Shown here one piece after another: positions 158-30,476 of a stretch of 32,674 bases of DNA. Position 1 is the stretch's first letter, and every line of letters starts with the position of its first letter. Origin of the DNA: a virus; IMG/VR virus record IMGVR_UViG_3300015374_000034, positions 1 to 32,674 of that record; one strand, written 5' to 3'. The notes under the pieces were generated by a model. That model saw only the letters and a program-made list of their open reading frames with translations, had not been told where the DNA came from and did not search any database. A program made the translations under genes and the position numbers.

Positions 158-505
158 TTGGCCAAGCAAGTGACCAGCATCTGCGACTGGCGAGACCACG
201 CGGACGGACCCGTGTGTGGCAAGCCGGCGCCCTACGACGCGACCTTCCGCGTCGACGGGATGACGCTGACCGGCGACCTGTGCCTCCAGCACAAGGACCT
301 CACGATCGAGAGGCTGCGTCTCTCCGGCATGGTGCCCCACCACATCCAGCTCGACGGCAAGCCCCGGCAGACCTACATCACCGCCAGCGGCAAGGTCGTC
401 TCCGGGAAGGACATCCGAGCGTGGGCGATGGACCAGAACAAGCTCCACACCACGTCCGGACGACTACCCGAGGTCCTGATCCAGGAGTACCTCGCCGTGC
501 ACTAG
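158..505 (+). CDS. Lsr2-like DNA-binding protein with N-terminal Cys/His cluster
   Basis: About 115 aa. The C-terminal 35 residues (IRAWAMDQN..., SGRLP, IQEYLA) match the pattern of the Lsr2 C-terminal DNA-binding domain, which in Lsr2 binds AT-rich minor grooves through an RGR-like loop; here the loop reads SGR. The N-terminal half has C-D-W, C-G-K-P and C-L-Q-H groups that could bind zinc. There is no Lsr2-type N-terminal dimerisation domain, so DNA bridging is not implied. I chose the TTG at 158 because GGCAGGA lies 7 nt upstream; the GTG at 170 and a longer TTG at 110 are alternatives. The stop overlaps tail-to-tail with the reverse sigma gene within a shared CTAG (502-505). Likely role: a phage regulator or xenogeneic silencer antagonist (inference). 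Confidence 0.75.
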   Translation: MAKQVTSICDWRDHADGPVCGKPAPYDATFRVDGMTLTGDLCLQHKDLTIERLRLSGMVPHHIQLDGKPRQTYITASGKVVSGKDIRAWAMDQNKLHTTSGRLPEVLIQEYLAVH

Positions 506-1209
506 CGACGCAGCTCCTGCATGGCGTTGGAGCGGGTCTGGCGACACCACGCCGGGCTGATCTCCAGGCGCTCGGAGACCTCGCGCATGCTCAGGTCGTC
601 CACGTAGAGCGAGAGCACCAACACCCGTGAGCGTGGGCTCAGGCTGGCCGGCCGTGTCGCCAGCCGCGCCCGGAGCTCGGAGACCATGGAGACCACCTCG
701 GCCTCCGAGGACACCCCGCGGGTCTCGACCTCCTCGGCGTCGAGCGAGGCGTTGAGGGTCTGCTGCGCCAGGAGGGCGGCACGGACCTCCTCGGGCTCCA
801 TGCGCGCCCGGTCCGCGATCTGCTCGATCCTGGGCTCGGAGCAGCCCTCATCCCACAACTCCTCGATCGCGGCCTGCACGATCTTCACGCGACGGCGCGT
901 CTGGCGAGCGAGCGGGTCCTGGCTGCGTTGGCCGTCGATGATCGCTCCCGTGATGACTCGGGTGCCGTAGGTCTCGAACTTCACCCCCATCTCGGGGTCG
1001 AACCTCTGAATCGCCTTGAGCAGCCCATGGTGGGCGTAGCTCAGGATGTCCTCGCGGTCCTGGTGCGCCGGCGCCTTGGCCAGCGCCTTGCGACCGAGGT
1101 AGGAGGCCAGCCCGGCGTACTGCGCCATGAGCAGCTCCAGCGCCTCCGGAGACCTCGTCTCGACGTACCCCGCCCACACCGCCGCCAGGGTGGCCTCATC
1201 CATGCTCAC
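502..1209 (-). CDS. Phage-encoded sigma factor, FliA/WhiG (sigma-28) type
   Basis: 235 aa, close to the usual size of FliA (about 240 aa). Region 2 (about residues 25-105) contains a core-binding helix followed by FDPEMGVKFETYGTRVITGA and IIDGQRSQD, the pattern of sigma-28/WhiG proteins (KFETYA-x-RIRGAMIDE). Region 3 spans about 106-158. Region 4 (about 187-235) has LSPRSRVLVLSLYVDDLSM followed by a helix-turn-helix ending NAMQELRR, like the FliA/WhiG region 4.2. I chose the GTG at 1209: GGAG lies 5 nt upstream and the start overlaps the stop of the upstream gene as GTGA, so the two are translationally coupled. An ATG at 1203 is the alternative. It would redirect host RNA polymerase to phage promoters; the repeated GCCGAAGT boxes downstream resemble the sigma-28 -10 element. 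Family assignment is strong; the target promoters are inference. Confidence 0.88.
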   Translation of the reverse strand: MSMDEATLAAVWAGYVETRSPEALELLMAQYAGLASYLGRKALAKAPAHQDREDILSYAHHGLLKAIQRFDPEMGVKFETYGTRVITGAIIDGQRSQDPLARQTRRRVKIVQAAIEELWDEGCSEPRIEQIADRARMEPEEVRAALLAQQTLNASLDAEEVETRGVSSEAEVVSMVSELRARLATRPASLSPRSRVLVLSLYVDDLSMREVSERLEISPAWCRQTRSNAMQELRR

Positions 1210-1760: not shown

Positions 1761-1778
1761 CTCAACGCGCGTTCTGAG
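1761..1778. promoter_or_regulatory. Palindromic operator-like site with AACG-CG-CGTT core
   Basis: CTCAACGCGCGTTCTGAG, an imperfect copy of the same family with centre 1768.5. It lies 18.5 nt upstream of the GTCGAAGT box that precedes the forward gene, and about 65 nt from the palindrome serving the reverse operon. The divergent region 1635-1828 therefore carries one site per direction. Confidence 0.55.
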
Positions 1779-1786
1779 GGCACCGT

Positions 1787-1794
1787 GTCGAAGT
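1787..1794 (+). promoter_or_regulatory. GTCGAAGT box, variant of the GCCGAAGT promoter element
   Basis: One mismatch from GCCGAAGT. A GTG in frame with the next gene begins exactly 7 nt downstream (1802), the spacing seen at the leaderless starts. Here, however, a strong AAGGAGGAG and an ATG at 1829 lie further down, so the transcript may simply have a short leader. Confidence 0.5.
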
Positions 1795-5049: not shown

Positions 5050-5366
5050 GGCGCCGCGTCAGAGGCCAGCACCCGACTCGCCTCGTCGACGACGAGGCCG
5101 ACCTCCTCGCCCCCGACGAGGCCGACGCCTTCGAGCCGCACGTCGTCGACTGGCCGATCGGCGGCATCATGATGGAGGAAGACGGCTGCGAGCCCGACAC
5201 GCACGTCTGGGGCCCGTCGTACGTCCTGCCCGACGTCGTGACGGAGGACAGCGACCGTCGCGCGGCCTACGCCGGCTGCACGAAGTGCGCGGCCATGATC
5301 CGACTAGAGCCCGCGCCCCTCGACATGCACGACCGCGACGCCATCGAGAGGTGGCTCGACTCGTGA
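5046..5366 (+). CDS. Acidic hypothetical protein preceding TerL
   Basis: 106 aa, ATG overlapping the previous stop (ATGA) and its own TGA overlapping the terminase GTG. Basic first 12 residues, then very acidic (VDDEADLLAPDEADAFEP). A later GCTKC pair could hold metal. No family recognised. Tight coupling to the large terminase suggests it is made in similar amounts and may act in packaging (inference). Confidence 0.7.
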   Translation: MRRRVRGQHPTRLVDDEADLLAPDEADAFEPHVVDWPIGGIMMEEDGCEPDTHVWGPSYVLPDVVTEDSDRRAAYAGCTKCAAMIRLEPAPLDMHDRDAIERWLDS

Positions 5367-7030: not shown

Positions 7031-7038
7031 GCCGAAGT
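7031..7038 (+). promoter_or_regulatory. GCCGAAGT promoter box
   Basis: Exact box directly abutting the terL stop. If it is a -10 element, transcription would start near 7045 and give a leader of about 65 nt before the ATG at 7110. No conserved -35 is visible. Confidence 0.55.
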
Positions 7039-7052
7039 CCTCCGCAGAGCCG

Positions 7053-7091
7053 TAGCCCGTGAGGGGCTAGGCCAGATGCCCGTGATGGGCA
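7053..7091 (+). promoter_or_regulatory. Twin leader hairpins with CCC-GTGA-loop motif
   Basis: Two successive small hairpins lie in the leader of the next gene: TAGCCC/GGGCTA (7053-7069) and TGCCC/GGGCA (7077-7091). Both have loops beginning GTGA. The AGGAGGG ribosome site follows directly. Possible RNA-protein binding site. Confidence 0.45.
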
Positions 7092-7109
7092 GAACAGGAG
7101 GGCATAGCC

Positions 7110-7529
7110 ATGCCACGCGAGACCGTCTTCACTCCGTACCCCCACGACCCCGCCACCGGGCCGGCGCCGTTCCAGATCCACGTCGGCTGGCAGCGCGACC
7201 AGGACGTCCAGGTCGGCATCGGCACCCCGGAGACCGGCACCGGGCAGTACCACATCGTCGACCACGTCTACGGCGACGACGTCGAGCGCATCGGTCAGCT
7301 CATGCAGACCTTCCTCATCGAGAACAGCATGGGCGTCCAGCACGACTTCCGCACGTCCGACGCGGAGCGCGATTACCACGCTCTGCTGGGCCGCGGGGTG
7401 CTCGACGCCGTCACTGGCTCGAACCCGTTTGGTACCGACATCTGGTGGCGTCCCGGCCGCGCGCAGATCAACACGCTGATCCGCCTGCTCCGCAAGGCGC
7501 GCGACGCGGCGTACGGCCGCGACGAGTAA
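7110..7529 (+). CDS. Hypothetical protein between terminase and portal modules
   Basis: 139 aa, ATG at 7110 with AGGAGGG about 7 nt upstream. Aromatic N-terminal half (FQIHVGWQRDQDVQVGIGTP), helical middle (VERIGQLMQTFLIEN), basic C-terminus (INTLIRLLRKARDAAYGRDE). No family recognised. It has its own promoter box, a structured leader and a terminator immediately downstream, so it forms a single-gene unit, perhaps a separately controlled early or regulatory product. Confidence 0.75.
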   Translation: MPRETVFTPYPHDPATGPAPFQIHVGWQRDQDVQVGIGTPETGTGQYHIVDHVYGDDVERIGQLMQTFLIENSMGVQHDFRTSDAERDYHALLGRGVLDAVTGSNPFGTDIWWRPGRAQINTLIRLLRKARDAAYGRDE

Positions 7530-7539
7530 ACCAGCCAGC

Positions 7540-7577
7540 GACAGCCCCGTCCCAACGCCCGTTGAGACGGGGCTGTC
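7540..7577 (+). terminator. Hairpin terminator with operator palindrome at its tip
   Basis: A 38-nt inverted repeat: outer arms GACAGCCCCGTC / GACGGGGCTGTC are perfect (12 bp). After one mismatch the inner arms CAACG / CGTTG surround a CC centre. The inner part is a full copy of the AACG palindrome family (7553-7564). There is no U-tract, as is common for actinobacterial terminators. Confidence 0.7.
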
Positions 7578-7681
7578 GTGAGCTCGACGCCGGCGAGCGT
7601 GCACCATCGGCGCACTCTCAGCCCCGTTTTCGACAGAAACCTGCGGGAAACGGGAGTTGAGGAGCGTTTAGAGGCGTTCAG

Positions 7682-7696
7682 GCCGAAGTCTGCTCC
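7682..7696 (+). promoter_or_regulatory. GCCGAAGT box with 7-nt spacing to a leaderless GTG
   Basis: GCCGAAGT occupies 7682-7689, followed by seven bases and the GTG at 7697. No Shine-Dalgarno sequence is present, which fits a transcript starting at the start codon. A degenerate operator (AACGGGAGTTGAG) lies at 7649-7661. Confidence 0.65.
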
Positions 7697-8125
7697 GTGC
7701 CGACGACCGAGATGCAGGAGGACCGCTTCGGCCCCTCCAGTGCAGCCCCCGCAGCGCACGAGCCTCCCTCGATGGAGCAGCTGGTCCTGCTGTTCTCCTC
7801 CACGATCAACGCGCTCGGCGCGCCCGGCTACCTGGGGACCAGGGCCGAGGTGGAGAAGGAGCTGGACCTCATCGCTGCCGCGATGCGGACGTTCTACGCC
7901 AAGCCCGCCGACATGGTCATGCGCGAGTGCTCGGCGTACACCGGCCGGCTCACCGAGCTCGCGGTGCTCCTGCACCGCCGTGAGGGCGAGAGCCGGCACT
8001 GGACCAGGGTCCGCACCCAGCAGGTCCAGCGGTTCATCGACGAGCTCGACCGGCAGTGGAAGACCGCCAGCCGGCTGATCGAGGTCTCGCGTCAGGACCT
8101 CGCCGTGATGAGGGGGCAGGTGTGA
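7697..8125 (+). CDS. Hypothetical helical protein preceding portal
   Basis: 142 aa from the GTG at 7697, chosen because it lies exactly 7 nt after GCCGAAGT; the internal ATGs at 7712 and 7772 lack ribosome sites. After a disordered 30-residue N-terminus the protein is almost entirely helical (TRAEVEKELDLIAAAMRTFY, RVRTQQVQRFIDELDRQWK). Its TGA overlaps the portal GTG (GTGA), so it is coupled to portal synthesis. Could be a portal-associated or head assembly protein. No family recognised. Confidence 0.75.
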   Translation: MPTTEMQEDRFGPSSAAPAAHEPPSMEQLVLLFSSTINALGAPGYLGTRAEVEKELDLIAAAMRTFYAKPADMVMRECSAYTGRLTELAVLLHRREGESRHWTRVRTQQVQRFIDELDRQWKTASRLIEVSRQDLAVMRGQV

Positions 8126-9786
8126 CTGTCGTAGTCCGCGAGAACGCGGTGCTCAACACCGCGGACGGCATGCCGTGGATCAACGCTGCCGGCGACGAGT
8201 TCACCAGCGCCGTGAAGCCCTACGTCGACAAGGTCGCCCGCGAGATCGCGAACTGGGTGGACCGCACCCGCACCGCTGGCCGCGGGCCCAGCCTGTTCAA
8301 CCGCGCCGCCTACGTCGCGCCCGACAACCCCTACTCCCAGATGGCCACCGCGCGATCCGCGGTGGAGAACGACGACGTCATCGGCGGGGTCTGCGACGTC
8401 ACCGAGGGCCTGATCTTCCAGGGCCTCAAGTGGGAGTCCGAGGACCCGCTCGCGGCCGACATCTTCAACCAGCTGGGCACCGACCTCGACCTCGACTCGT
8501 TCGCCCGGCAGTGGCACCGCGAGGACTTCATCTACAGCCAGTCGATCGTCGGACTGTGGTGGGGCCGCAAGACCTACACGCCCAAGGCGAAGACCGAGAA
8601 GGGCAAGCGGTCCAAGAAGAAGGTCACCATGGCCTGCCCGGTCGCGTGGACCTTCCTCGACCCCACCAAGGTCGTCCCTCTGCGCCCTGGCCCGTTCGGC
8701 GAGGACCGCCTCGCGTGGCACGCCACGCCGTATGAGATGGCCGCCGCCGCGGCCGGCGTGAACGGCGAGTACATGGACCCGCTGCTGGCCGAGTTCACCC
8801 TCGGCAAGATCAACGTCAACGACCGCGTCGAGCGCGAGCTCGTGATCCGCTGGGGCTTCGACCCGGATCGGCTGCTGCTGCTCAACCCCATGACGGTCTT
8901 CCGGATGACCCGCACCAAGATGACCTACGAGCGGTTCCCGATCATCCGGCTCAAGTCGACCTTCCCGCTGCTCGACCTCAAGCAGCAGCTGATCGAGGCC
9001 GACCGCGTCAGCCTCGTCGGCGCGGCCAACTTCATCCTGCTCGTGCGCCAGGGCACCAAGGAGGAGCCCGCCACCCAGGAGGAGATCGACAACCTCAAGG
9101 ACAACTTCAAGGTGGTCGCCAAGCTCCCCGTCGTCGTCGGCGACCACCGCCTCCAGATCGACATCATCACCCCGGCCCAGGAGCACGTCCTCCAGAGCGA
9201 GAAGTACGACGTCCTCGACCGTCGCATCCTCCAGCGCACCATGGGCGCGCTCACCATGGGCAGCAGCGGCCAGCGCAACGAGTCGACCGTCACGATCGCC
9301 CGCGGCGTGGCCCGGCTGCTGGAGAACCGGCGCCACATGATGAAGCGGACGCTGGAGCGCGAGATCGCGCGCCGCATCGTCGACCACCCCGACAACGCCG
9401 ACCTGTTCGAGCACGAGCCCAACCTCGTGTTCACCCCGAAGAACGTCCAGCTCGACGACGACGCCGAGGTGGCCCGCTCGATCATGGCGCTGCGCACGAT
9501 GAACGAGATCTCCCGCGAGTCGACGCTGGAGCACTTCGGGTTCGACCAGGCCACCGAGGCGCTGCGCCGCGAGTTCGAGAAGGACGCCGGCTACGACGAC
9601 ACCTTCAAGACCGTCGTGCCGTTCTCCGCGACCGGCGGCCAGGGCGACAACCCCGACGGGACGCCCACGCCCTCCAACGTTGACGGAGCCAAGGGCGGTC
9701 GCCCGGCTGGCGGCGGCAACTCTCCGCAGTCCCCCCAGGGCCAGGCCGGCGGACGCAATAGCCGGGGCCAGAAGTCGCCGAAGTAG
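8122..9786 (+). CDS. Portal protein
   Basis: 554 aa, typical of siphovirus portals. GTG at 8122 overlaps the previous stop. Features: N-terminal helical part with NRAAYVAPDNPYSQ, a DPTKVVPL strand motif, a long middle helix region (FPLLDLKQQLIEADRVSL) matching the stem/crown layout, and TMGALTMGSSGQRNESTVTI, the segment often seen before the C-terminal helices. The last about 50 residues are Gly/Asn/Pro-rich and disordered. It forms the dodecameric ring at the head vertex through which TerL pumps DNA. Gene order (between TerL and protease/scaffold) confirms the call. Its final codons carry the promoter box for the next gene. Confidence 0.9.
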   Translation: MTVVVRENAVLNTADGMPWINAAGDEFTSAVKPYVDKVAREIANWVDRTRTAGRGPSLFNRAAYVAPDNPYSQMATARSAVENDDVIGGVCDVTEGLIFQGLKWESEDPLAADIFNQLGTDLDLDSFARQWHREDFIYSQSIVGLWWGRKTYTPKAKTEKGKRSKKKVTMACPVAWTFLDPTKVVPLRPGPFGEDRLAWHATPYEMAAAAAGVNGEYMDPLLAEFTLGKINVNDRVERELVIRWGFDPDRLLLLNPMTVFRMTRTKMTYERFPIIRLKSTFPLLDLKQQLIEADRVSLVGAANFILLVRQGTKEEPATQEEIDNLKDNFKVVAKLPVVVGDHRLQIDIITPAQEHVLQSEKYDVLDRRILQRTMGALTMGSSGQRNESTVTIARGVARLLENRRHMMKRTLEREIARRIVDHPDNADLFEHEPNLVFTPKNVQLDDDAEVARSIMALRTMNEISRESTLEHFGFDQATEALRREFEKDAGYDDTFKTVVPFSATGGQGDNPDGTPTPSNVDGAKGGRPAGGGNSPQSPQGQAGGRNSRGQKSPK

Positions 9787-9791
9787 GGAGC
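9777..9791 (+). promoter_or_regulatory. GCCGAAGT box inside portal 3' end, 7 nt from the next ATG
   Basis: GCCGAAGT at 9777-9784 spans the last portal codons and stop; seven bases later comes the ATG at 9792. The spacer contains GGGAG, so translation could use either a ribosome site on a longer mRNA or a leaderless start. Confidence 0.55.
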
Positions 9792-10640
9792 ATGACCGTG
9801 ACCAGCAAGGCTCAGCTGCGCGACGACCTGCACCGCCGCTACGGTCGCGATCGCGCCGCGGTGATGTCGCCGCAGGAGATGCACGACAAGGCCGTGAAGA
9901 TGGGCGCCAACTGCCCCGGCATGGGCAAGCAGAAGGCCGGCGACGTCGCGTGGGAACGAGCGTTCGTACTCCACGCCGAGAGCGGCCGGACGGTCATCAC
10001 CGCACCGGTGCGCGAGATCGCCTCGAACAACCCGGCCTTCACCCTGCTCTCGGGTCGACTCGTCGGCGCCGACGAGCCCAACCGCAACGGCGCCCTGTGG
10101 ACTAGCGAGGACCTCCAGATGGGCGAGGGCTCCGTTGCTGGCGGGCCGCTGAACTGGCTCCACGACGACACCAAGAACATCGGCTGCCTGCTCGACGGCC
10201 GGATGACCGCGGCCACCGACGACGTGCCCGCCCACATCGCCACCAACGCCGCCGTGTGGTCGTTCCTGTTCCCCAACGAGACCAAGGTGATCGCCAGCGC
10301 CGCCCGCGCCGGCGACCTCTACTACTCGATGGAGTGCGTCAGCCGCGAGGTCTCCTGCGTCGGCGACAACGGCTGCGGGGAGTCCTTCTCCTACGCCGAC
10401 TACGAGGCCAAGCGCACGTGCGCGCACCTGCGCGAGCGCTCCTCGACGCGCCGGTTCGTCGACCCGCTGTTCCTCGGCGCCGCGGTGATCGTCCCGCCCG
10501 TCTCCCCCGGCTGGGCGCAGGCCAACGTCGAGCTCGCGCGCCAGGCCGCTGCCGCCGCCGAGACGATCCACGAGGACCACCTCACCAAGCAGCAGGCGCA
10601 GGACCTCGCCGCGCAGATCCTCAGCTGGGCCAACCGCTAG
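9792..10640 (+). CDS. Probable prohead maturation protease
   Basis: 282 aa, ATG at 9792 with GGGAG. Middle region shows the layout of herpesvirus/HK97-type prohead proteases: LSGRLVGADEPNRNGALWTS, then GPLNWLHDDTKNIGCLLDGR with a candidate catalytic His, then LYYSMECVSRE with a candidate catalytic Ser. A cysteine cluster follows (C-x6-C, NGCGE, RTCAHL), a possible zinc site less usual for the family. C-terminal helix QQAQDLAAQILSWA. It would cleave scaffold and capsid delta-regions. Position between portal and scaffold agrees. Its TAG ends in a shared CTAG with a reverse gene. Confidence 0.7.
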   Translation: MTVTSKAQLRDDLHRRYGRDRAAVMSPQEMHDKAVKMGANCPGMGKQKAGDVAWERAFVLHAESGRTVITAPVREIASNNPAFTLLSGRLVGADEPNRNGALWTSEDLQMGEGSVAGGPLNWLHDDTKNIGCLLDGRMTAATDDVPAHIATNAAVWSFLFPNETKVIASAARAGDLYYSMECVSREVSCVGDNGCGESFSYADYEAKRTCAHLRERSSTRRFVDPLFLGAAVIVPPVSPGWAQANVELARQAAAAAETIHEDHLTKQQAQDLAAQILSWANR

Positions 10641-11047
10641 AGCAGCACCTCGCTGTTCAGCACGAACATGCGTGACGCGAAGGCCTCATCGGCGACCGGG
10701 TCACTGCACACCAGCTGGTGCTCGACGATGTCGTGCCGGCCGCGGTCGACCCATCCGTTCCGGTACGCCTGCGCGCGTCGTACCTGGCTGGTCACGCCCA
10801 GGGCGGCGAGCGTGACCACGATCAGCATCCCGACGAAGGCTGCCCAGCCAGTGGCCTGCACCGCGAGGAAGACTCCGGCCAGCATCGCCAGGAACTTGAC
10901 CAGCACCAGGGGCACCATCCATCGCGCTCGGGACTGCATCTCGACGTAGCACTTCTCCCAGACCTGGCCCTGCTGGAACGCCCACTCGAACGGCTGCGGC
11001 ATCCGCGCCGCTTGACGCAGCTGACGCTCGATCTCCTCGTGATCCAT
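10637..11047 (-). CDS. Reverse-strand two-TM membrane protein inside structural region
   Basis: 136 aa on the opposite strand to all neighbours. Two adjacent hydrophobic segments (about residues 45-63 and 68-86: PLVLVKFLAMLAGVFLAV; AAFVGMLIVVTLAALGV) lie between a charged amphipathic N-terminal region and a soluble C-terminal domain of about 45 residues. ATG at 11047 with TACGGT ending 6 nt upstream, as in a leaderless promoter; a weak GGTGAG is also present. It is monocistronic and convergent with the protease, sharing CTAG. An independently expressed membrane protein in this setting suggests a moron-like gene, perhaps superinfection exclusion (inference only). Confidence 0.65.
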   Translation of the reverse strand: MDHEEIERQLRQAARMPQPFEWAFQQGQVWEKCYVEMQSRARWMVPLVLVKFLAMLAGVFLAVQATGWAAFVGMLIVVTLAALGVTSQVRRAQAYRNGWVDRGRHDIVEHQLVCSDPVADEAFASRMFVLNSEVLL

Positions 11048-11058
11048 GCGCTCACCGT

Positions 11059-11068
11059 AACGCGCGTT
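11059..11068. promoter_or_regulatory. Palindrome AACGCGCGTT at the promoter of the reverse membrane gene
   Basis: Perfect 10-bp palindrome of the AACG family, centre 11063.5. It overlaps the edge of the candidate -10 (TACGGT, 11059 to 11054 on the reverse strand), a position suited to repression. Confidence 0.5.
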
Positions 11069-11090
11069 CAGACCCCGGAGCCGATGCCGT

Positions 11091-11106
11091 CTGAACGCCC
11101 GTTGAG
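11091..11106. promoter_or_regulatory. Palindromic operator-like site CTGAACG-CC-CGTTGAG
   Basis: Centre 11098.5, lying 35.5 nt upstream of the GCCGAAGT box of the scaffold-capsid operon and 35 nt from the palindrome of the divergent reverse gene. Confidence 0.6.
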
Positions 11107-11112
11107 CGCGAA

Positions 11113-11141
11113 CTAGCGCCTGCGGCCAGGTCAGCCGAAGT
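11113..11141 (+). promoter_or_regulatory. Promoter of scaffold-capsid operon: CTAGC - GCCGAAGT
   Basis: CTAGC at 11113 and GCCGAAGT at 11134-11141 are 21 nt apart, start to start. The same pair at the same distance occurs ahead of the major tail protein (17734/17755). Sigma-28 promoters have TAAA about 19 nt before GCCGATAA, so CTAG may be the -35 here. Leader of about 55-60 nt to the ATG at 11205. Confidence 0.6.
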
Positions 11142-11204
11142 CACCCCTCGAACGGCGGTCGAGCCAAACCCCTCGACCCAGACAGGTGTGAGGAGGCAAG
11201 GCAC

Positions 11205-11738
11205 ATGGCCGACACGGACAAGACGTTCACCGAGCAGGAGCACATCGCGATCCTCGCGGATCGCGTGGCGAAGGAGACCGCTTCTCTGACCGAGCAGATC
11301 AACACGCTCACCACCGAGAAGACGGATCTGGAGTCCAAGCTCGACGTCGCCGAGAGCGCCAAGGTCGCCGCCGAGCAGGCCAAGGAGACCGCGGAGAAGG
11401 AGCTCGCGGACTTCAAGGCAGGGCTCGACGAGCTGGCCCAGGCCGAGGCCCGCAAGGGCGAGCGGCTCGACAAGGTCAAGGAGGTCGCGGCCCACCTCGG
11501 GGACGACTTCCTCGCCGACGAGGCCCGCGTACAGCGGATCGTCGCGATGAGCGACGACCAGTTCGAGGGCTATGTCGCCGACCTCAAGACGACCGCCCCG
11601 GCGACCACCTCGACGGGTGCCCCGGCCCCGCGCGAGACCGCCATGGCCGGCGCCGCGAGCGCCGCCGCCGGCGGGGCGCCGACCGAGTCCGCCGGCCGGC
11701 AGTTCCTGCTCGGCCGCTACATCCCGAAGGGGGACTGA
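11205..11738 (+). CDS. Scaffolding protein
   Basis: 177 aa, ATG with GAGGAGG upstream. Residues about 10-85 form a highly charged coiled coil (EQINTLTTEKTDLESKLDVA, AEQAKETAEKELADFKAG), followed by a short helical domain and an Ala/Thr/Pro-rich linker, ending in FLLGRYIPKGD. This composition and the place directly before decoration and capsid genes are typical of phage scaffolds, which guide capsid assembly and are then removed by the protease. First gene of a three-gene operon. Confidence 0.85.
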   Translation: MADTDKTFTEQEHIAILADRVAKETASLTEQINTLTTEKTDLESKLDVAESAKVAAEQAKETAEKELADFKAGLDELAQAEARKGERLDKVKEVAAHLGDDFLADEARVQRIVAMSDDQFEGYVADLKTTAPATTSTGAPAPRETAMAGAASAAAGGAPTESAGRQFLLGRYIPKGD

Positions 11739-11741
11739 CCC

Positions 11742-12290
11742 ATGGCCTCCGACTACGGCCTCAACTTCGGGTTCCGGCGCTCCGACGAGTCGATGGCGAC
11801 CCGCGAGGGCCGCTTCAAGACCCCGGCCACCGGTGACCCGCTGCTCCAGGGTTCGGCGGTCTCGCTGGACCCGGCCACGCCCGGCTACCTCAAGCAGGCG
11901 GACGCCAATGCCGACCCGGTGACGGGTCTGACTGGCCTCCTCGTGCAGGAGGAGAGCCACATCCCGGACCGGTTCAACGAGGTCCTGCTTCTCGGCCACG
12001 ACTCCTACGACCTGGGGCGCTGCAAGCTCGACCAGCTCTCGGTCATGTGGGCCGGCGTCGGGACCAAGGTCTGGTTCCGCAACACGGCGGCGTACGCCCG
12101 GGGCTCGCGCTCCAAGGACGCCGTCACCCTCGTCGACGTCACCGGAGTCGCCGTGGGCGACCCGCTGGTGTGGGACGGGTCCAAGTGGGTCAAGGGCGAC
12201 GGGACTCCCGCCGGCTGGCTCACCGTCACCGCCGTTTCCGGCACGGGCGCCACCGCAGGTGCCTACGTCGAGGCCGTCGTCACCTTCTGA
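11742..12290 (+). CDS. Capsid decoration / head-stabilisation protein
   Basis: 182 aa starting 3 nt after the scaffold stop. Beta-rich with no long helices; repeated Gly/Thr/Val strands (AVTLVDVTGVAVGDPLVWDG, WLTVTAVSGTGATAGAYVEA) resemble phage head decoration proteins that stud the outer capsid. Position between scaffold and major capsid gene is the usual one for this class. No sequence-specific motif was identified, so function rests on context and fold type. Confidence 0.65.
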   Translation: MASDYGLNFGFRRSDESMATREGRFKTPATGDPLLQGSAVSLDPATPGYLKQADANADPVTGLTGLLVQEESHIPDRFNEVLLLGHDSYDLGRCKLDQLSVMWAGVGTKVWFRNTAAYARGSRSKDAVTLVDVTGVAVGDPLVWDGSKWVKGDGTPAGWLTVTAVSGTGATAGAYVEAVVTF

Positions 12291-12307
12291 GAGGGGGGAC
12301 CAACACC

Positions 12308-13297
12308 ATGAGCACCAAGACCATCGACGACCTCCTGGCCGCCAAGTCTGGGCTGGACCCGTGGGGCCGGCAGAAGGCCGGTGACCTCGCGGAGTACCAG
12401 CGCGCGAAGGCCGCCCTCAACCAGGAGGCCAAGGACAACTGGCACCGGGAGGAGTGGCACCGCGAGCAGGCCGCCATCCTCGCGGAGCGCCTCGACTACG
12501 GCTTCCAGTTCGAGAACCTGTTCGGCACCTACTTCGAGGTCCGCAACGTCGGCGAGTTCGACACCGTGGAGATCTCGGAGCGCCGGGGCATGCAGGTCTT
12601 CTGGACCGCCCGCGGTGGCTACATCGACGAGACCCAGCTCAAGACCGAGCGGTTCACGGTCCCCCGTGACACCATCGGTTTCCACGTCTCGGAGTTCGCC
12701 GACAAGCTGCGCGCGAACTACGCCGAGACGCTGGAGCAGCTGGCGGACCTCGCCATGCAGCGCCTCGACGCCGAGGTCAACCGCCGGATGTTCCAGCTGC
12801 TCCAGGCAGCGATCCCGTCGTCCTCGCCCTACTACGTCAACGCGACCACGGGCATGACCAAGGACGACCTCGACACCGCGCTGCGCGAGGTGTGGGACGC
12901 CGTCAAGCCGAACAACGGCACGATGCCTCCGATCACGATCCTCGGTCGGGCCACGATGATCGACAAGATCAGCGACGTCATCACCGACGCCTCTGCTCTG
13001 TTCGACCCCGAGGCCACCTCGGAGATCCGCCGGCTGGGGCGCATCGGCGTCTACCGCGGCGCCAACGTGGTGCGCATCCAGAACTACACCGACGAGAACG
13101 ACGCCTCCTACATCCCGGACAACGAGCTCTGGGTCTTCGGCGGCACCGTCGGTCTGTTCGCGAAGTACGGCGGCATGCAGAGCAAGTCGTGGGAGGAGAA
13201 CACGGTGGACTACCGGCACATCCGTGGCCGGATGGACTGCGGTGGCCTCGTGTACCACCCGGACCGCGCCCGTCGCATCGTGGACGGCAGCGTCTGA
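12308..13297 (+). CDS. Major capsid protein (HK97-like fold)
   Basis: 329 aa from the ATG at 12308, with a GAGAGGGGGG ribosome site; open frame upstream belongs to the previous gene's shadow. The N-terminal about 60 residues are helical and charged, like a delta-domain. Later segments fit an HK97-type E-loop, spine helix (LEQLADLAMQRLDAEVNRRM) and P/A domains (PITILGRATMIDKI, FGGTVGLFAKYGGM). A strong terminator follows 20 nt after the stop, so the capsid message ends here rather than running into the connectors. Confidence 0.88.
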   Translation: MSTKTIDDLLAAKSGLDPWGRQKAGDLAEYQRAKAALNQEAKDNWHREEWHREQAAILAERLDYGFQFENLFGTYFEVRNVGEFDTVEISERRGMQVFWTARGGYIDETQLKTERFTVPRDTIGFHVSEFADKLRANYAETLEQLADLAMQRLDAEVNRRMFQLLQAAIPSSSPYYVNATTGMTKDDLDTALREVWDAVKPNNGTMPPITILGRATMIDKISDVITDASALFDPEATSEIRRLGRIGVYRGANVVRIQNYTDENDASYIPDNELWVFGGTVGLFAKYGGMQSKSWEENTVDYRHIRGRMDCGGLVYHPDRARRIVDGSV

Positions 13298-13317
13298 CCT
13301 CGCCCCGCCGCTCAACA

Positions 13318-13351
13318 CAGAACCCCTGGGACCACAGTCCCGGGGGTTCTG
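13318..13351 (+). terminator. Strong hairpin terminator after capsid gene
   Basis: 15-bp stem (CAGAACCCCTGGGAC with GTCCCGGGGGTTCTG, one G-T pair) around a CACA loop, without a U-tract. It closes the scaffold-capsid operon and sits 21 nt before the next promoter box. Confidence 0.85.
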
Positions 13352-13372
13352 TCCATGTTCGGGCGCTCTCGG

Positions 13373-13387
13373 GCCGAAGTACTCGTC
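13373..13387 (+). promoter_or_regulatory. GCCGAAGT box with 7-nt spacing to the leaderless endolysin ATG
   Basis: GCCGAAGT at 13373-13380, seven bases, then ATG at 13388. No ribosome site precedes the ATG. It lies just after the capsid terminator, making the lysis cassette a separate unit. Confidence 0.7.
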
Positions 13388-13930
13388 ATGAGCAGGAGTG
13401 AGAACGGCTGGCCGGCGATCGCGAGCAACTCCTCGTCGCTGCTGTACACGTGGGTCCTGCCCGTGGCCGACCACGAGAAGGACTACGTCCACCTCCGCTG
13501 CCACCGCGGCTCCGCGGGTTTCGTGCTCTGCCACTGCGCGATGCGCTGGGACGGCATGATCGAGGACATCGACGGCGGCATCGTCGACGACTGGGGCTGG
13601 GCGTTCCGGCCGGTCCGCGGCTACTCGACCGTCCTGAGCAACCACTCCAGCGGGACCGCGCTCGACCTCGACGCCATCAAGCACCCGTTGGGCCGCGACA
13701 CCTTCGACGACGCGGACACCGCGACCATGCACAAGCTGCTCAAGATCTACGACGGCACGATCCGCTGGGGCGGCGACTACCACAACCGCCTCGACCAGAT
13801 GCACATCGAGCTGAACGACGGGGTGACCATGGCCGACGTCGAGCGCGTGGCCAAGAAGCTCATGAAGACGCCTCGCGGCCAGCGCCTGCTGGCAGCCAAC
13901 CCCTCTCAGAAAGTGGTGATCCTGTCATGA
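13388..13930 (+). CDS. Endolysin, M15 family L,D/D,D-peptidase
   Basis: 180 aa, a single catalytic domain. The M15 zinc motif S-x-H-x2-G-x-A-x-D is seen as SNHSSGTALDLD (His86, Asp93). IRWGGDY (about 126-131) and QMHIEL (His139, with Asp136 just before) supply the remaining catalytic and zinc residues. Such enzymes cut the peptide stem or cross-bridge of peptidoglycan. No separate wall-binding domain, signal peptide or membrane segment is present, so release would depend on the holin encoded next. Start chosen by the promoter spacing; the upstream extension has no ribosome site. ATGA overlap to the next gene. Confidence 0.9.
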   Translation: MSRSENGWPAIASNSSSLLYTWVLPVADHEKDYVHLRCHRGSAGFVLCHCAMRWDGMIEDIDGGIVDDWGWAFRPVRGYSTVLSNHSSGTALDLDAIKHPLGRDTFDDADTATMHKLLKIYDGTIRWGGDYHNRLDQMHIELNDGVTMADVERVAKKLMKTPRGQRLLAANPSQKVVILS

Positions 13931-14022
13931 CCTGGTCCAAGTCCGAGGTCCTGCTCCTGCTGATCCTCGTCACGCTGTGGATCGACATCCTGTTCGTGGG
14001 CGCGAAGGCGCTGATCCGATGA
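13927..14022 (+). CDS. 31-aa single-TM membrane peptide of lysis cassette
   Basis: Tiny gene reading MTWSKSEVLLLLILVTLW then IDILFVGAKALIR. It has a charged start, one hydrophobic helix of about 20 residues and a basic end. ATG overlaps the endolysin stop (ATGA) and its TGA overlaps the next ATG in the same way, so all three are coupled. Probably a holin partner, antiholin or pinholin-like peptide; which of these cannot be told from sequence. Confidence 0.65.
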   Translation: MTWSKSEVLLLLILVTLWIDILFVGAKALIR

Positions 14023-14309
14023 GCCTGCTCAACCGGCTCCTCTCGGTGCCGAACCTCGTGCTCGGCGCCATCACCTCCGGCCTCGGCCTCCTGGTGCTGT
14101 TCGGCGTGGACCTCTCCGACGCCCAGATCGGCGGCATCCTCGCCTTTCTCGGCGCCGTGATCGCGCTGGTCACCGCGATCGTGGTGCCCTCGGGCCAGGT
14201 CATCGCCCAGCAGAAGCCCGGCGATGAGCCGGTGAAGGCGACGAAGGCCGCCGCGCTGCGCTGGGGCCTGCGCGAGGGATCGACCGTGACGGTCGACCAC
14301 GCGGCGTAA
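14019..14309 (+). CDS. Holin
   Basis: 96 aa with two hydrophobic segments (about residues 12-28, LVLGAITSGLGLLVLFG, and 37-56, GGILAFLGAVIALVTAIVV) joined by a short acidic turn (VDLSDAQI), and a charged C-terminal tail. This is a classic small two-TM holin layout, and it directly follows the endolysin. It would form membrane lesions that let the M15 endolysin reach the wall. ATGA overlap with the preceding peptide gene. Confidence 0.8.
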   Translation: MSLLNRLLSVPNLVLGAITSGLGLLVLFGVDLSDAQIGGILAFLGAVIALVTAIVVPSGQVIAQQKPGDEPVKATKAAALRWGLREGSTVTVDHAA

Positions 14310-14319
14310 CATCGGCCGT
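14307..14319 (+). promoter_or_regulatory. Candidate leaderless promoter TAACAT, 7 nt before ATG 14320
   Basis: TAACAT at 14307-14312 overlaps the holin stop, and the next ATG follows after seven bases with no ribosome site. It resembles a housekeeping-type -10. The -35 (CGTGAC) is weak. Confidence 0.35.
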
Positions 14320-14454
14320 ATGTGGATCGTGCTCTGGCTGGCGATCATCACGGTCGCCTCGTTCTACTGCGGCGCTGTGATGGCGACTGGACGCCAATGG
14401 CCGTTCCGCAACCCGCTTGAGGAACGGCGGCACCGCAAGATGCACGACGTCTGA
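14320..14454 (+). CDS. 44-aa single-TM membrane protein ending lysis cassette
   Basis: Starts MWIVLWLAIITVASFYCGAV, one N-terminal hydrophobic helix, followed by a basic cytoplasmic-like tail (EERRHRKMHDV). Too short for many gene callers. No ribosome site, but a TAACAT box lies 7 nt upstream. It could be an accessory lysis protein. The stop overlaps the start of the following AACG palindrome. Confidence 0.55.
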   Translation: MWIVLWLAIITVASFYCGAVMATGRQWPFRNPLEERRHRKMHDV

Positions 14455-14464
14455 ACGGGCGTTG
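14453..14464. promoter_or_regulatory. Palindromic operator-like site GAACG-GG-CGTTG
   Basis: Centre 14458.5, exactly 34.5 nt upstream of the CTAGAAGT box at 14493. Only 85 nt before the next gene start. Confidence 0.6.
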
Positions 14465-14492
14465 CCAAAAAAGATCCACTGCTCCGTCGACG

Positions 14493-14508
14493 CTAGAAGT
14501 CCTTGCGG
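14493..14508 (+). promoter_or_regulatory. CTAGAAGTCCTTGCGG box, promoter of connector operon
   Basis: AGAAGTCCTTGCGG (14495-14508) is identical over 14 bases to 30235-30248 and nearly so to the reverse-strand box at 1669. A leader of about 40-45 nt with a GAGGAGG site leads to the ATG at 14550. Confidence 0.5.
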
Positions 14509-14549
14509 CTCGTGATCTGCTTGACCCAAGCGCACACGAGGAGGACGCA

Positions 14550-15062
14550 ATGGCGCAGAGCTTCGCCACCGGCGAGAAGGAGATCTGGGAGTCGACCATC
14601 GAGGGTCGAGTCTCGGTCGTGGTCCTGAATAGCCGAGGACGCGAGCAGACCATGAGCATCCGCGGCAAGGGGGCGCGGCTCCGGCTGACCACCGAGGAGC
14701 GCGTGCTCATCGAGGAGCAGGTCCGGTACCGGCAGAACAACCCGTTCCGCAACGGCATGCTGGTCCAGGTCGGCGGACCCAAGCCGGCGCCCGGTGAGGA
14801 CGGCCAGCTGCCGGACACCGAGCAGGCCCTCCTCGACTCCGACCTCAAGGCTCTCTACGACCTCAAGGACAGCGACTTCGAGGACGCGGTGAAGTCGCTG
14901 TCGGAGGTCAACGTCCGTCGACTCAAGGGCATGGTCTCCGAGGCCGACGCGTCCAAGAGCCAGATCGACTTCCTCGACCTCTACATCGAGCAGCAGTGGC
15001 CTCTGGGGGGGGACACGCCCTCGAATGCTGAGGCTCGCGGCGACCGTACGGTCACCGTGTAG
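14550..15062 (+). CDS. Hypothetical structural-module protein
   Basis: 170 aa, ATG with GAGGAGG. N-terminal beta-type segment (TIEGRVSVVVLNSRGREQTM), middle with a basic helix (LTTEERVLIEEQVRYRQNNP), then acidic helices (SDLKALYDLKDSDFEDAVKS). It stands first in the connector operon and alone between its promoter and the terminator at 15109, so it is probably a separate transcript. Possibly a head or connector accessory protein. No family recognised. Confidence 0.75.
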   Translation: MAQSFATGEKEIWESTIEGRVSVVVLNSRGREQTMSIRGKGARLRLTTEERVLIEEQVRYRQNNPFRNGMLVQVGGPKPAPGEDGQLPDTEQALLDSDLKALYDLKDSDFEDAVKSLSEVNVRRLKGMVSEADASKSQIDFLDLYIEQQWPLGGDTPSNAEARGDRTVTV

Positions 15063-15108
15063 GGCACGCCATCTCGGGTCGCCGTCAGACCGCCCGGGGT
15101 GGCGTTAC

Positions 15109-15152
15109 GAGGCCCGTCCCTGATGCGCTGGGTTGCCGCAGGGGCGGGCCTC
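15109..15152 (+). terminator. Hairpin terminator after gene 14550-15062
   Basis: 14-bp stem (GAGGCCCGTCCCTG with CAGGGGCGGGCCTC, one G-T pair) and a 16-nt loop. No U-tract. It ends 10 nt before the next GCCGAAGT box. Confidence 0.75.
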
Positions 15153-15162
15153 TCCACGCTTG

Positions 15163-15177
15163 GCCGAAGTCTCAGAC
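15163..15177 (+). promoter_or_regulatory. GCCGAAGT box with 7-nt spacing to leaderless GTG
   Basis: GCCGAAGT at 15163-15170, seven bases, GTG at 15178. No ribosome site. As at 13373, the box lies immediately behind a terminator. Confidence 0.7.
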
Positions 15178-15687
15178 GTGACGACCCAGATCAGCACGCT
15201 CGTTCCCGCGTTCAAGCGGGAGCTGGCTGTGCCGGGAGCCTTCGACACGGTCTTCCCCGACGCGACCACCGCCGACCTCGTCGGCTCCCTGGCGGACGGC
15301 TTCGCCGAGGCCCAGCTGTTCGGGTTCTTCAAGACGACCACGCTCACCGAGAACGCCGGCGACTGGGATGCGAGCCCCGACCTGTCCGCGGCCGGTGGCG
15401 CGCTCATCGTGATCTACGCCAGCATCCGCACCATTCGCGCCCAGCTGCGCAACCTCAAGACGCTCCAGCGCTACAAGGCCGGCCCCGTCGAGTTCGAGAC
15501 CGGCAGCGCGGCCACCGTGCTCACCCAGGAGCTCAAGTTCCTCCAGGACCGACTCAAGGACATCATCCGGAACGCAGAGGGCTCTGCTCGCGCCAGCGCC
15601 GGGCTGGCCACGGTGTTCGACAACTACCTCGCGCGCGAGTGCGCCATGGCCTCGTGGGGCGGCTTCTACCCGCACGAGTGGAGGTAG
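15178..15687 (+). CDS. Probable head-tail connector (adaptor) protein
   Basis: 169 aa. The GTG at 15178 was chosen because it lies 7 nt after GCCGAAGT and has no competing ribosome site. Mainly helical (ATTADLVGSLADGFAEAQLF, LIVIYASIRTIRAQLRNLKT) with a tail ending in GGFYPHEWR, consistent with the helical adaptor ring that docks below the portal. First of five coupled genes leading to tail completion. Assignment is from position and fold type only. Confidence 0.6.
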   Translation: MTTQISTLVPAFKRELAVPGAFDTVFPDATTADLVGSLADGFAEAQLFGFFKTTTLTENAGDWDASPDLSAAGGALIVIYASIRTIRAQLRNLKTLQRYKAGPVEFETGSAATVLTQELKFLQDRLKDIIRNAEGSARASAGLATVFDNYLARECAMASWGGFYPHEWR

Positions 15688-15690
15688 GTC

Positions 15691-16137
15691 GTGTCCAAGG
15701 ACTTCACGCCCCCCGACTTCGACAAGGCGGCGGTGCTCGAAGGGCTGCACACCGCGATGGGGTTCGGGCAGCCCACCCGCACCGAGGACCGCGCGACCTT
15801 CTACCTGCCCAAGGCGATCGTCGACACTCCGGCCGCGCTCGACCTCCATGGCGTGCCCTTCGACCCCACGGTCAAGCGGGTCGTGAGCACCACCAAGGTG
15901 CAGGTCCCGTGCGCCGTGGAGTTCTACAACGGCGCCGAGGTGATCGAGACCTTCGGCCAGGTCTCGGCCACCCACATCGTCGTCACCCTGCTCGACCCTG
16001 AATACCAGCAGGTGAAGGATTTTCTCTACATCGTGGCCGGCGGAGACAAGTACATCCGCAGCGAGACCCAGCCCCCGGTCGCGCTCGGCTCGATCGACGT
16101 CTGGCAGGTCTGGGCGCAGGCGGAGAACGAGCGATGA
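15691..16137 (+). CDS. Probable head-closure / stopper protein
   Basis: 148 aa, GTG with GGAGG upstream, 3 nt after the previous stop. Beta-rich (VKRVVSTTKVQVPCAVEFYN, ATHIVVTLLDPEYQQVKDF), with a central strand set suited to a small head-closure ring protein. Its TGA overlaps the next ATG. Function by position: second connector gene after the adaptor. Confidence 0.55.
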   Translation: MSKDFTPPDFDKAAVLEGLHTAMGFGQPTRTEDRATFYLPKAIVDTPAALDLHGVPFDPTVKRVVSTTKVQVPCAVEFYNGAEVIETFGQVSATHIVVTLLDPEYQQVKDFLYIVAGGDKYIRSETQPPVALGSIDVWQVWAQAENER

Positions 16138-16664
16138 CCTACCCGCGCCACGCCAGCCGGCACGTGCTGGCCACCGTCACCAACATCGTCACGGCCCAGC
16201 TCGCCATTCTCGACTGGGACGACGACACCAACCTCCCGTTCGGGCCCCGGTTCGCCGCGCCGGTCACCTTCACCGACGCCCCCGCGATCGCCGCCGACCG
16301 CCTCGCCGACGGCGTCGGTCCGGGCACCGTGAGCATCACGCTCGGACCCGAGCTCTACCCCGAGGAGCAGGAGCTCGGCGGACCCTCGTCACGCCAGGAC
16401 TACCCCATCTTCGTCGACCTGTTCCAGCCGACGTACGCCGCCTGCACGGCGCTGGCCAACGACGTCCGCGACACCCTGCTCGGCCGCTTCCCCGGAACGC
16501 GCCGACACATCAGCGTCGTCGACCAGACCGACGGCGACCCCATCGACGGCTGGACCTGCGAGCTCAGCGACGTCGAGATCGTCCGCCCCGAGGTGCGGCT
16601 CCCCGTGTTCTGGCAGGTCGTCAAGGTGACCGCCGAGGTCTACTTCCCCGAGGTCCAGTACTGA
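16134..16664 (+). CDS. Probable minor head or tail-terminator protein
   Basis: 176 aa, ATG overlapping the previous stop (ATGA). Mixed alpha/beta: PGTVSITLGPELYPEEQEL, DYPIFVDLFQPTYAACTALA, LPVFWQVVKVTAEVYFPE. The pattern of a central sheet with a helix of the YAACTALANDVRDTLLGRF type is like tail-terminator proteins (lambda gpU class) that cap the tail tube. A minor capsid role is the alternative. Confidence 0.5.
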   Translation: MTYPRHASRHVLATVTNIVTAQLAILDWDDDTNLPFGPRFAAPVTFTDAPAIAADRLADGVGPGTVSITLGPELYPEEQELGGPSSRQDYPIFVDLFQPTYAACTALANDVRDTLLGRFPGTRRHISVVDQTDGDPIDGWTCELSDVEIVRPEVRLPVFWQVVKVTAEVYFPEVQY

Positions 16665-16951
16665 TGGCCAACCAGTTCATCCGCAACCTCATGGGCGAGC
16701 AGCGCAAGCGCGCGCTCGGCAGCGTCATGACCTATGTCGAGCGCGAGGTCTACCCACACCTGAGCGAGTCCCAGCAGAAGGCCCTCCGACACCGCATCGT
16801 CAGCGCCCTGACCCAGTACCACGACACCGCGCTGGACGTGCTCAAGTCCGCGGTCGACGACGGCGGAGTGGTGAACCAGGAAGCCCTCGCCGCGCTCACG
16901 CGCATGGACGCCAACCTCTCCACCCTGGCCAAGCAGGTCGGCCGTGGCTGA
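16664..16951 (+). CDS. Small helical hypothetical protein in connector operon
   Basis: 95 aa, start sharing one base with the previous stop (TGATG). Entirely helical and charged (RNLMGEQRKRALGSVMTYVE, SQQKALRHRIVSALTQYHDT). It overlaps the next gene by 8 nt. Not recognised; perhaps an assembly accessory. Confidence 0.7.
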   Translation: MANQFIRNLMGEQRKRALGSVMTYVEREVYPHLSESQQKALRHRIVSALTQYHDTALDVLKSAVDDGGVVNQEALAALTRMDANLSTLAKQVGRG

Positions 16952-17588
16952 CGGGCTCCAGGTCCGCTTCGAGGTGACCCCCTCCCCCGCCCTGCGTAAC
17001 GCGCTCGGCCAGTACACCAGCGAGGGCGCCCAGGGGCAGTACAACGAGAACCGCGTGCTGGCTCAGATGCTCTCGGTTCGACTGGGGCTGCTCATCGCCA
17101 CCCGCGTCAACTTCGGGAAGCGCGCTGCGGCCAGCTCTAAGCGGCTGGAGCGCACGTCAGTCTCCAGAGAGAACACGGTCGTCACCAAGGAGTTCGTCGG
17201 GATCGGTCGGCCGGACTGGCTGGACCGTTCCAACGCGAAGTACTGGCGCACCTTCGAGGAGGGCTCCGCCGCCGTGTGGCGCCACCCGTTCGTCGGCACC
17301 TTCCTGTTCCCCAAGGGCCGGGTGCCCTACCCCCAGCCCGGCGGACACGGAAGCCTCCCCGGCCTGCGCACGGCACGGGAGCCCTTCCTGCACCGGATGG
17401 GCCGCGACGACCTGTTCATCGTCAAGCGCGAGATCGCGCCTGCCCACATCTACAAGCAGCTGTGGGAGGAGGCCCGACCGGACATCCGGAACTACTCGGC
17501 GCGCGCTGTGCAGGGGTATCTGGAGCGGCTGTTCGGGAAGGGCAACGTCGTGGCCGGGAAGGGCTTCACGCCGCCCGCCGTGCGCTGA
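16944..17588 (+). CDS. Probable tail-completion / HK97 gp10-like protein
   Basis: 214 aa, GTG at 16944 overlapping the preceding gene by 8 nt. Basic and mixed fold, with RVNFGKRAAASSKRLERTS near the N-terminus and IRNYSARAVQGYLERLFGKG at the C-terminus. Length, charge and position before the major tail protein fit the gp10-like/tail-completion class. Last gene before a long intergenic region, so it ends the connector operon. Moderate confidence. Confidence 0.5.
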   Translation: MADGLQVRFEVTPSPALRNALGQYTSEGAQGQYNENRVLAQMLSVRLGLLIATRVNFGKRAAASSKRLERTSVSRENTVVTKEFVGIGRPDWLDRSNAKYWRTFEEGSAAVWRHPFVGTFLFPKGRVPYPQPGGHGSLPGLRTAREPFLHRMGRDDLFIVKREIAPAHIYKQLWEEARPDIRNYSARAVQGYLERLFGKGNVVAGKGFTPPAVR

Positions 17589-17614
17589 GCAGACCTCCCC
17601 TTAGGTACTAACGT
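17586..17614 (+). promoter_or_regulatory. Weak housekeeping-type promoter candidate
   Basis: TGAGCA (17586-17591) and TAACGT (17609-17614) are separated by 17 nt at the start of the 227-nt region before the major tail gene. Fair spacing but imperfect hexamers. Confidence 0.25.
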
Positions 17615-17649
17615 CGCACCGGCCCAGCCTGTCCAGCCGACGACCTCGT

Positions 17650-17665
17650 CTCAACGGGCGTTGAG
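17650..17665. promoter_or_regulatory. Perfect-arm operator palindrome CTCAACG-GG-CGTTGAG
   Basis: Best member of the family: seven-base arms, eight if the flanking T/A is counted, around a GG centre (17657.5). First of two copies in the intergenic region 17589-17815. Confidence 0.65.
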
Positions 17666-17715
17666 ATCAGACCGGCCGGCCGCCCAGCTCGAGGAGCGCC
17701 GGCGACTTCTCGGGC

Positions 17716-17727
17716 CAACGGCCGTTG
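17716..17727. promoter_or_regulatory. Operator palindrome CAACGGCCGTTG
   Basis: Perfect 12-bp palindrome, extended by GGGC/GCCC flanks into a possible hairpin. Centre 17721.5, lying 33.5 nt upstream of the GCCGAAGT box at 17755 and 64 nt downstream of the other copy. Confidence 0.65.
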
Positions 17728-17733
17728 AGCCCA

Positions 17734-17793
17734 CTAGCACCTCCCCCAGCTGGGGCCGAAGTCCTCCGTCGAGGGCGCCACCGGCGCCGATAA
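17734..17793 (+). promoter_or_regulatory. Major tail gene promoter: CTAGC - GCCGAAGT, plus GCCGATAA
   Basis: CTAGC (17734) and GCCGAAGT (17755-17762) have the same 21-nt offset as at the scaffold operon. In addition, GCCGATAA at 17786-17793 is an exact match to the sigma-28 -10 consensus and stands 22 nt before the ATG, but no TAAA is found at the right distance and it overlaps a GGCGCC-ACC-GGCGCC hairpin. Confidence 0.6.
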
Positions 17794-30441: not shown

Positions 30442-30476
30442 GCATTTCCCGCCATTCCAACAGCCCGAGGAGAGCC

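Follow-up and report, generated by a model that had tools for sequence, protein, structure and literature searches.

A conserved promoter box of the sigma28 (FliA/WhiG) type and a candidate phage sigma factor for it in a group of uncultured phages

Introduction

Leaderless promoters of mycobacterial and actinobacterial genes carry a TANNNT element about 6 to 7 nucleotides (nt) before the start codon. Such genes lack a ribosome site, as leaderless-gene surveys report (PMC3898074, PMC4633059). Flagellar and WhiG promoters have the consensus TAAA at -35 and GCCGATAA at -10 (PMC8325347), the latter being common to FliA and WhiG (PMC8325347, PMC2859248). The consensus for Escherichia coli sigma28 is written TAAAGTTT-n11-GCCGATAA, and the aer promoter has GCCGACAT together with an upstream activator (PMC2859248). 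Phage sigma factors as such are already known, and SigF/G/K-like dormancy sigmas of phages belong to a sigma branch other than that of FliA and WhiG (PMC9429907). Here we analyze a 32,674-base virus record from IMG/VR (IMGVR_UViG_3300015374_000034; GC content, 67 to 71%), the whole of which is referred to as the window. In the window the 8-mer GCCGAAGT, referred to as the box, recurs upstream of genes, and a gene for a FliA/WhiG-like sigma factor lies at 502..1203 on the minus strand.

An earlier note on this DNA had described the box as a promoter element at a fixed distance from leaderless start codons. Judged by its sequence, the box is a -10 element of the sigma28/FliA/WhiG type, a kinship that the note missed. 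We consider that the window carries phage promoters of this type with GCCGAAGT as their -10, most likely read by the phage's own sigma factor (probability about 0.75). The observations behind this reading are the box, its spacing to start codons, its conservation in relatives, a -35 register, and the sigma gene with its kinship.

Results

Recurrence and placement of the box

GCCGAAGT occurs eight times on the plus strand, the gene strand, at 7031, 7682, 9777, 11134, 13373, 15163, 17755, and 20109, exactly where the earlier note had placed it. On both strands there are 11 copies, whereas 100 dinucleotide shuffles averaged 1.15 and never exceeded 5. Intergenic DNA makes up 6.6% of the window yet holds six of the eight plus-strand copies. 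Exactly 7 nt (N7) separate the box from the start codons at 7697 (GTG), 9792 (ATG), 13388 (ATG), and 15178 (GTG), as had been claimed, and among 20,000 random 8-mers from the window only GCCGAAGT itself was found more than once exactly 7 nt before starts. The one-mismatch box GTCGAAGT at 1787..1794 (plus strand), also reported previously, likewise stands at N7 from the GTG at 1802, and the upstream region of the orthologue in lineage L010 has GTCGAAGT as well.

Chance or codon usage might be invoked to explain such repeats, since three minus-strand copies (21397, 25075, and 29366) lie within plus-strand genes and upstream of none, the copy at 20109 is coding, and a strand count in the window gave no plus-strand enrichment of one-mismatch copies. 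Because there was no such excess, the analysis was restricted to exact or aligned boxes; a loose box pattern and a spacing profile were set aside as too noisy. For the set as a whole, the shuffles, the intergenic placement, the exact recurrence of N7, and the cross-lineage conservation described below refute an artefact, which we give practically no weight; it may account for the copies at 9777 and 20109.

Putative leaderless and leadered promoters

The N7 boxes lack a ribosome site, as the earlier note stated, except at 9777. They lie on the plus strand at 7682..7689 before the GTG at 7697, where N7 is conserved in relatives; at 13373..13380, found by sequence scan, before the ATG at 13388 of the endolysin gene (13388-13930; family by PHROG 1512); and at 15163..15170 before the GTG at 15178. 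The endolysin open reading frame has a possible alternative start at 13355, upstream of the box, but in the form that starts at 13388 the match to the family already sets in at residue 3. The spacing and the absent ribosome site predict leaderless transcripts for these genes: if the last T of the box is at -7, transcription would start at the start codon or one base before it.

Terminator-like hairpins lie on the plus strand just 5' of the endolysin promoter (13316..13356; fold z score, -4.8) and just 5' of the promoter at 15163 (15108..15152; z score, -3.2 to -3.6). In 10 of 14 lineages, the hairpin orthologous to the latter had a z score no higher than -2.4. The order at both units thus appears to be terminator, promoter, and leaderless gene, the leaderless step being read from the spacing.

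The plus-strand boxes at 7031..7038, 11134..11141, and 17755..17762 stand 53 to 71 nt before the start, with a separate ribosome site between. The first, found by sequence scan, is 71 nt before the leadered gene at 7110; the second is the putative promoter for the operon of scaffold and capsid (gene 11205), and the orthologous promoter is conserved; the third precedes the tail gene at 17816. Fourteen bases, GCCGAAGTCCTCCG, are identical at 7031-7044 and 17755-17768. A strong hairpin (GACAGCCCCGTC...GACGGGGCTGTC) is also present 3' of gene 7110, at 7541-7580, and its loop contains a AACGCCCGTT palindrome.

It might be argued that the box is a noncanonical ribosome-binding site, GAAG about 7 nt before starts, because its spacing at four genes resembles that of a ribosome site. 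However, a box 53 to 71 nt before genes that have separate ribosome sites is not itself a ribosome site, and the same arrangement is found in relatives, in which the GAGGAGG ribosome site is a motif separate from the box. We therefore regard this explanation as extremely improbable.

Conservation in related phages

The close relatives of the window are uncultured viral contigs throughout. Among named phages, Caudovirales GX15bay (MK557849) comes nearest (39% identity in the terminase and 41% in the capsid), and a search for the capsid in bacterial genomes, made for prophage or host assignment, returned nothing. Orthologous genes were located in 36 dereplicated lineages and their upstream regions were inspected.

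Box and N7 are kept at orthologous genes of phages with 40 to 60% protein identity. At orthologues of gene 7697, GCCGAAGT stands at N7 in L010/L017, L013/L034, and L019 (before ATG in L010, L013, and L019), and GTCGAAGT does so in L014/L016 (before ATG in L014). At orthologues of gene 15178, N7 is retained in 12 to 13 of 21 lineages, with GCCGAAGT in L011, L013, and L018 and GTCGAAGT in L010, L016, and L046. The leadered promoters are conserved as well: the orthologous promoter of the box at 11134 has GCCGAAGT in L014/L016, L017, and L046 and GCCGATrN in distant relatives, and GTCGAAGT is found at the place orthologous to 17755 in L016, L018/L019, and L046. Boxes of distant lineages include GCCGATGC, GCCGATAC, and GCCGATAT, as well as GCCGATAA in L026, a contig of 49% GC content. 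The aligned phage boxes have the form [G][C/T]CGA[A/T/C][G/A], and 60 aligned sites fit GCCGA(A/T)(G/A)N. In L026 (IMGVR_UViG_3300050821_001948), in which a sigma gene was not detected, GCCGATA(A/T/C)-N7-start occurs at 8671, 11850, 14854, and 19563, twice as exact GCCGATAA.

A motif search upstream of genes in related phages, which the earlier note had proposed, recovered the box unsupervised at orthologous starts. Unseeded expectation maximization gave GcCGAagt upstream of 15178 in 21 lineages (log-likelihood of 43, versus 23 for shuffled sequences) and GCCGAAga upstream of 7697 in 27 lineages (51 versus 22); upstream of 11205, with the ribosome site excluded, it gave TGCCGAtG. Independently of orthology, the 36 loci had 27 occurrences of GCCGAW-N9-ATG on the gene strand versus 3 on the opposite strand, with about 5 expected on each. 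Phages outside the capsid group that have FliA-like sigmas (L074 and L076-L080) have too few sites for comparison with chance, except L074 (2 versus 0.09 expected). The comparison thus strongly supports the part of the earlier promoter reading that concerns a -10-like box at a fixed distance; its leaderless starts are read from spacing, and its site at 9777 is doubtful.

Register of the -35 element

The phage boxes are GCCGATAA or close variants of it. The earlier note had found no conserved -35 apart from CTAGC at 11113..11117 and 17734..17738 (plus strand), and both elements are there, with 16-nt spacers to the boxes at 11134 (counted from TAGC) and 17755. However, a -35-like element at sigma28 spacing emerges when relatives are aligned. 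Of 26 leadered promoters, 19 have T at position -19 relative to the box (chi-square of 61.5, versus a maximum of 39.6 in 2,000 circular shifts); G is conserved at -16 and T from -15 through -13, and the fit to TAAAGTTT is highest at a spacing of 15 to 16 nt. These sequences share kinship, so that the figures overstate independence. The leadered structural promoters have a conserved T(C)RGTTT 15 to 16 nt 5' of the box, so that, relative to a sigma28 TAAA at 15 (14 to 16) nt, the T and GTTT are conserved in register and the AAA is not. The element is weaker at the leaderless promoters. No sigma70-type promoter was found between 7000 and 18000.

A FliA/WhiG-like sigma factor gene

The minus-strand gene at 502..1203, which the earlier note had also overlooked, encodes a 233-amino-acid phage sigma factor, assigned to the FliA/WhiG type by Pfam, NCBIfam, structures, and a tree, and a candidate reader of the box. 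It has the FliA/WhiG layout of sigma70 regions 2, 3, and 4 within 230 to 270 amino acids and no region 1.1; Pfam Sigma70_r2 and r3 scored above their cutoffs, and r4 scored just below (25.1 versus 25.7). Among solved structures, the best relatives are Streptomyces WhiG (6pfv) and E. coli FliA (6pmi), and the predicted model of the protein resembles WhiG and sigma28. The tree placed it with FliA-type sigmas and apart from SigF/G and SigA (support, 100/99), in a separate phage clade. FliA residues D81, R84, and R91, which we take to be determinants for reading the (extended) -10, align with D90, R93, and R100 of the window sigma and are invariant in five phage sigmas. FliA-type sigmas are present in four close lineages (the window, G002, G004, and G007), and further FliA-like ones are present in G020, G029, G038, G039, and G040. 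In a scan of bacterial genomes, the full-length matches had at most 32% identity.

Weighing phage and host sigma factors

Several points weigh against promoters of this type read by the phage sigma or against single copies of the box. With respect to the protein, FliA_WhiG (TIGR02479) is the top NCBIfam model for the window sigma, at 116 bits versus a cutoff of 189.6, and the protein is therefore labeled FliA/WhiG-like rather than filed as a member (cousin sigmas in G020, G029, G038, and G040 exceed that cutoff); it also lacks an arginine at the position of FliA residue 74. The last three bases of GCCGAAGT depart from the consensus. The plus-strand copy at 9777..9784 overlaps the stop codon of the portal gene (GCCGAAGTAG), has GGGAG directly before its ATG, and was not found upstream of orthologous genes in relatives, and the copy at 20109 is inside coding sequence; neither should count as a promoter. 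The genes served by the boxes at 7031 and 13373 occur in near-identical contigs only. Finally, the long contigs G014, G021, G024, and G031 keep the box and no FliA-type sigma was found in them, nor was a FliA/WhiG sigma found in the complete GX15bay genome, which has GCCGATGA-N7-ATG.

Where the box is kept and no sigma gene was detected, it must be read by some other sigma; the simplest candidate is that of the host, and host FliA/WhiG may serve those lineages. This raises the alternative that the window's boxes are also read by host FliA/WhiG and that the phage sigma redirects host genes, for instance, or only assists. The lineages with no detectable sigma, GX15bay among them, share the promoter grammar, and their boxes are closer to the host consensus (GCCGATAA or variants with T or C in L026). 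However, the nearest lineages whose contigs are sufficiently complete have their own divergent sigma together with a common divergent box, GCCGAAGT, and many actinobacteria are nonmotile and nonsporulating. We consider host reading of the window's boxes unlikely. Since the box is also kept in contigs in which no sigma was detected, the reading of the window's boxes by the window sigma stays an inference, albeit a strong one.

A palindrome upstream of the promoters

The window has 14 copies of the palindrome AACGNNCGTT (extended form, TGNYAACGNNCGTTRNCA) versus 0.24 expected (about 58-fold), and the 36 lineages together have 207 versus 7.0 expected (about 30-fold). It was at chance in bacterial loci (6 versus 5.5), and 20 actinomycete genomes have about 2 to 20 copies per million bases; GX15bay has one in 29 kb, in contrast to the 14 in the window. 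Copies in the window start at 1699, 1764, 3119, 6607, 7554, 9955, 11059, 11094, 14454, 17653, 17717, 19785, 20909, and 25657. Pairs of them are frequent 5' of the sigma28-type promoters, and copies are also found inside genes. The palindrome scan placed one (1764..1773) 13 nt upstream of the box at 1787, one (11059..11068) upstream of the promoter at 11134, and two (17653..17662 and 17717..17726) upstream of the promoter at 17755; a further copy upstream of 11134 (11094..11103) was also recovered de novo by motif search of the orthologous region. In most lineages, equivalents lie 13 to 36 nt 5' of the box of the scaffold promoter. Candidate roles are an activator site, dispersed sites for a repressor, and a role in replication or packaging.

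GCCGAAGT might itself be an operator for a DNA-binding regulator, as it is short, repeated, and 5' of operons. It is not palindromic, however, and AACGNNCGTT is a separate, real operator candidate; the constant distance of 7 nt from starts across many lineages, the single orientation, and the co-registered -35-like element also argue for a core promoter element. An operator role for GCCGAAGT is therefore very unlikely.

A gene for an XRE-like helix-turn-helix protein (4286-4813) is kept upstream of the terminase gene (5363-7030) in nearly all related lineages, and its product is a candidate regulator or packaging protein. Its proposal as the AACGNNCGTT binder was unsupported, since the gene is present in lineages that lack the palindromes.

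Other features of the window

The capsid gene is at 12308-13297, and the tape measure gene is at 20274-25334. A 214-amino-acid protein encoded at 3253-3897 is kept in most relatives and, from its position, is possibly the small terminase subunit. A noncoding inverted repeat at 30395-30445 (GGCTCATCGCATAGCC...GGCTGTGCGATGAGCC, followed by TTTTT) is terminator-like.

Discussion

In the mechanism that we propose, the phage FliA/WhiG-like sigma would bind host RNA polymerase and direct it to the boxes, chiefly through the composite GCC-GA(A/T) -10, with a weak -35 (T(C)RGTTT or TAGC) at 15 to 16 nt. It would thereby activate the operons for virion structure and lysis, presumably as late genes. A box 7 nt before a start codon would give a transcript from that codon or one base earlier, translated without a leader, and the boxes at 7031, 11134, and 17755 would give leaders of roughly 45 to 65 nt with a normal ribosome site.

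A broader view, which we offer tentatively, is that this phage group, widespread and for the most part uncultured, runs its structural genes by a sigma28/WhiG code, some members with their own diverged sigma and the box GCCGAAGT and others via host FliA/WhiG, tying virion production to motility or sporulation, with the phage-specific AACGNNCGTT as the site of an upstream regulator. The lineages with no detected sigma suggest that late phage genes may be linked to a regulon of the host for motility or development. If the promoter reading is correct, late promoters and leaderless starts could be annotated across a large uncultured phage group, which would also offer a simple test system for the co-change of sigma factors and -10 sequences. 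A phage sigma with its promoters is an ordinary mechanism; the proposed FliA/WhiG-type late-gene code is a variant of it, and no description of a FliA/WhiG-type phage sigma with a promoter code was found in the literature searched.

Among known systems, sigma28/FliA promoters and those of Streptomyces WhiG are similar in the GCCGA core, in the weak, T-first, T-rich -35-like element at 15 to 16 nt, and in reading by FliA/WhiG-family sigmas, which is predicted here. They differ in that the promoters described here would serve phage late operons and are probably often leaderless, that the box in the clade of the window ends in AGT rather than TAA, and that the -35 is TCRG or TAGC rather than TAAA. 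Mycobacterial and actinobacterial leaderless promoters share the fixed distance from the -10 to the start and the lack of a ribosome site, whereas the -10 here is of the sigma28 type and not TANNNT. GX15bay shares the N7 box with the window, but a FliA/WhiG sigma was found only in the latter. Sigma factors for middle and late genes of the type known from the Bacillus phage SPO1, and the sporulation-like sigmas of phages, resemble the proposed system in that a phage sigma redirects the host polymerase. In contrast to the SPO1-type middle and late sigmas, which belong to another branch, the sigma of the window belongs with the FliA/WhiG branch, has a promoter grammar that fits this branch, and is found in actinophage-like contigs.

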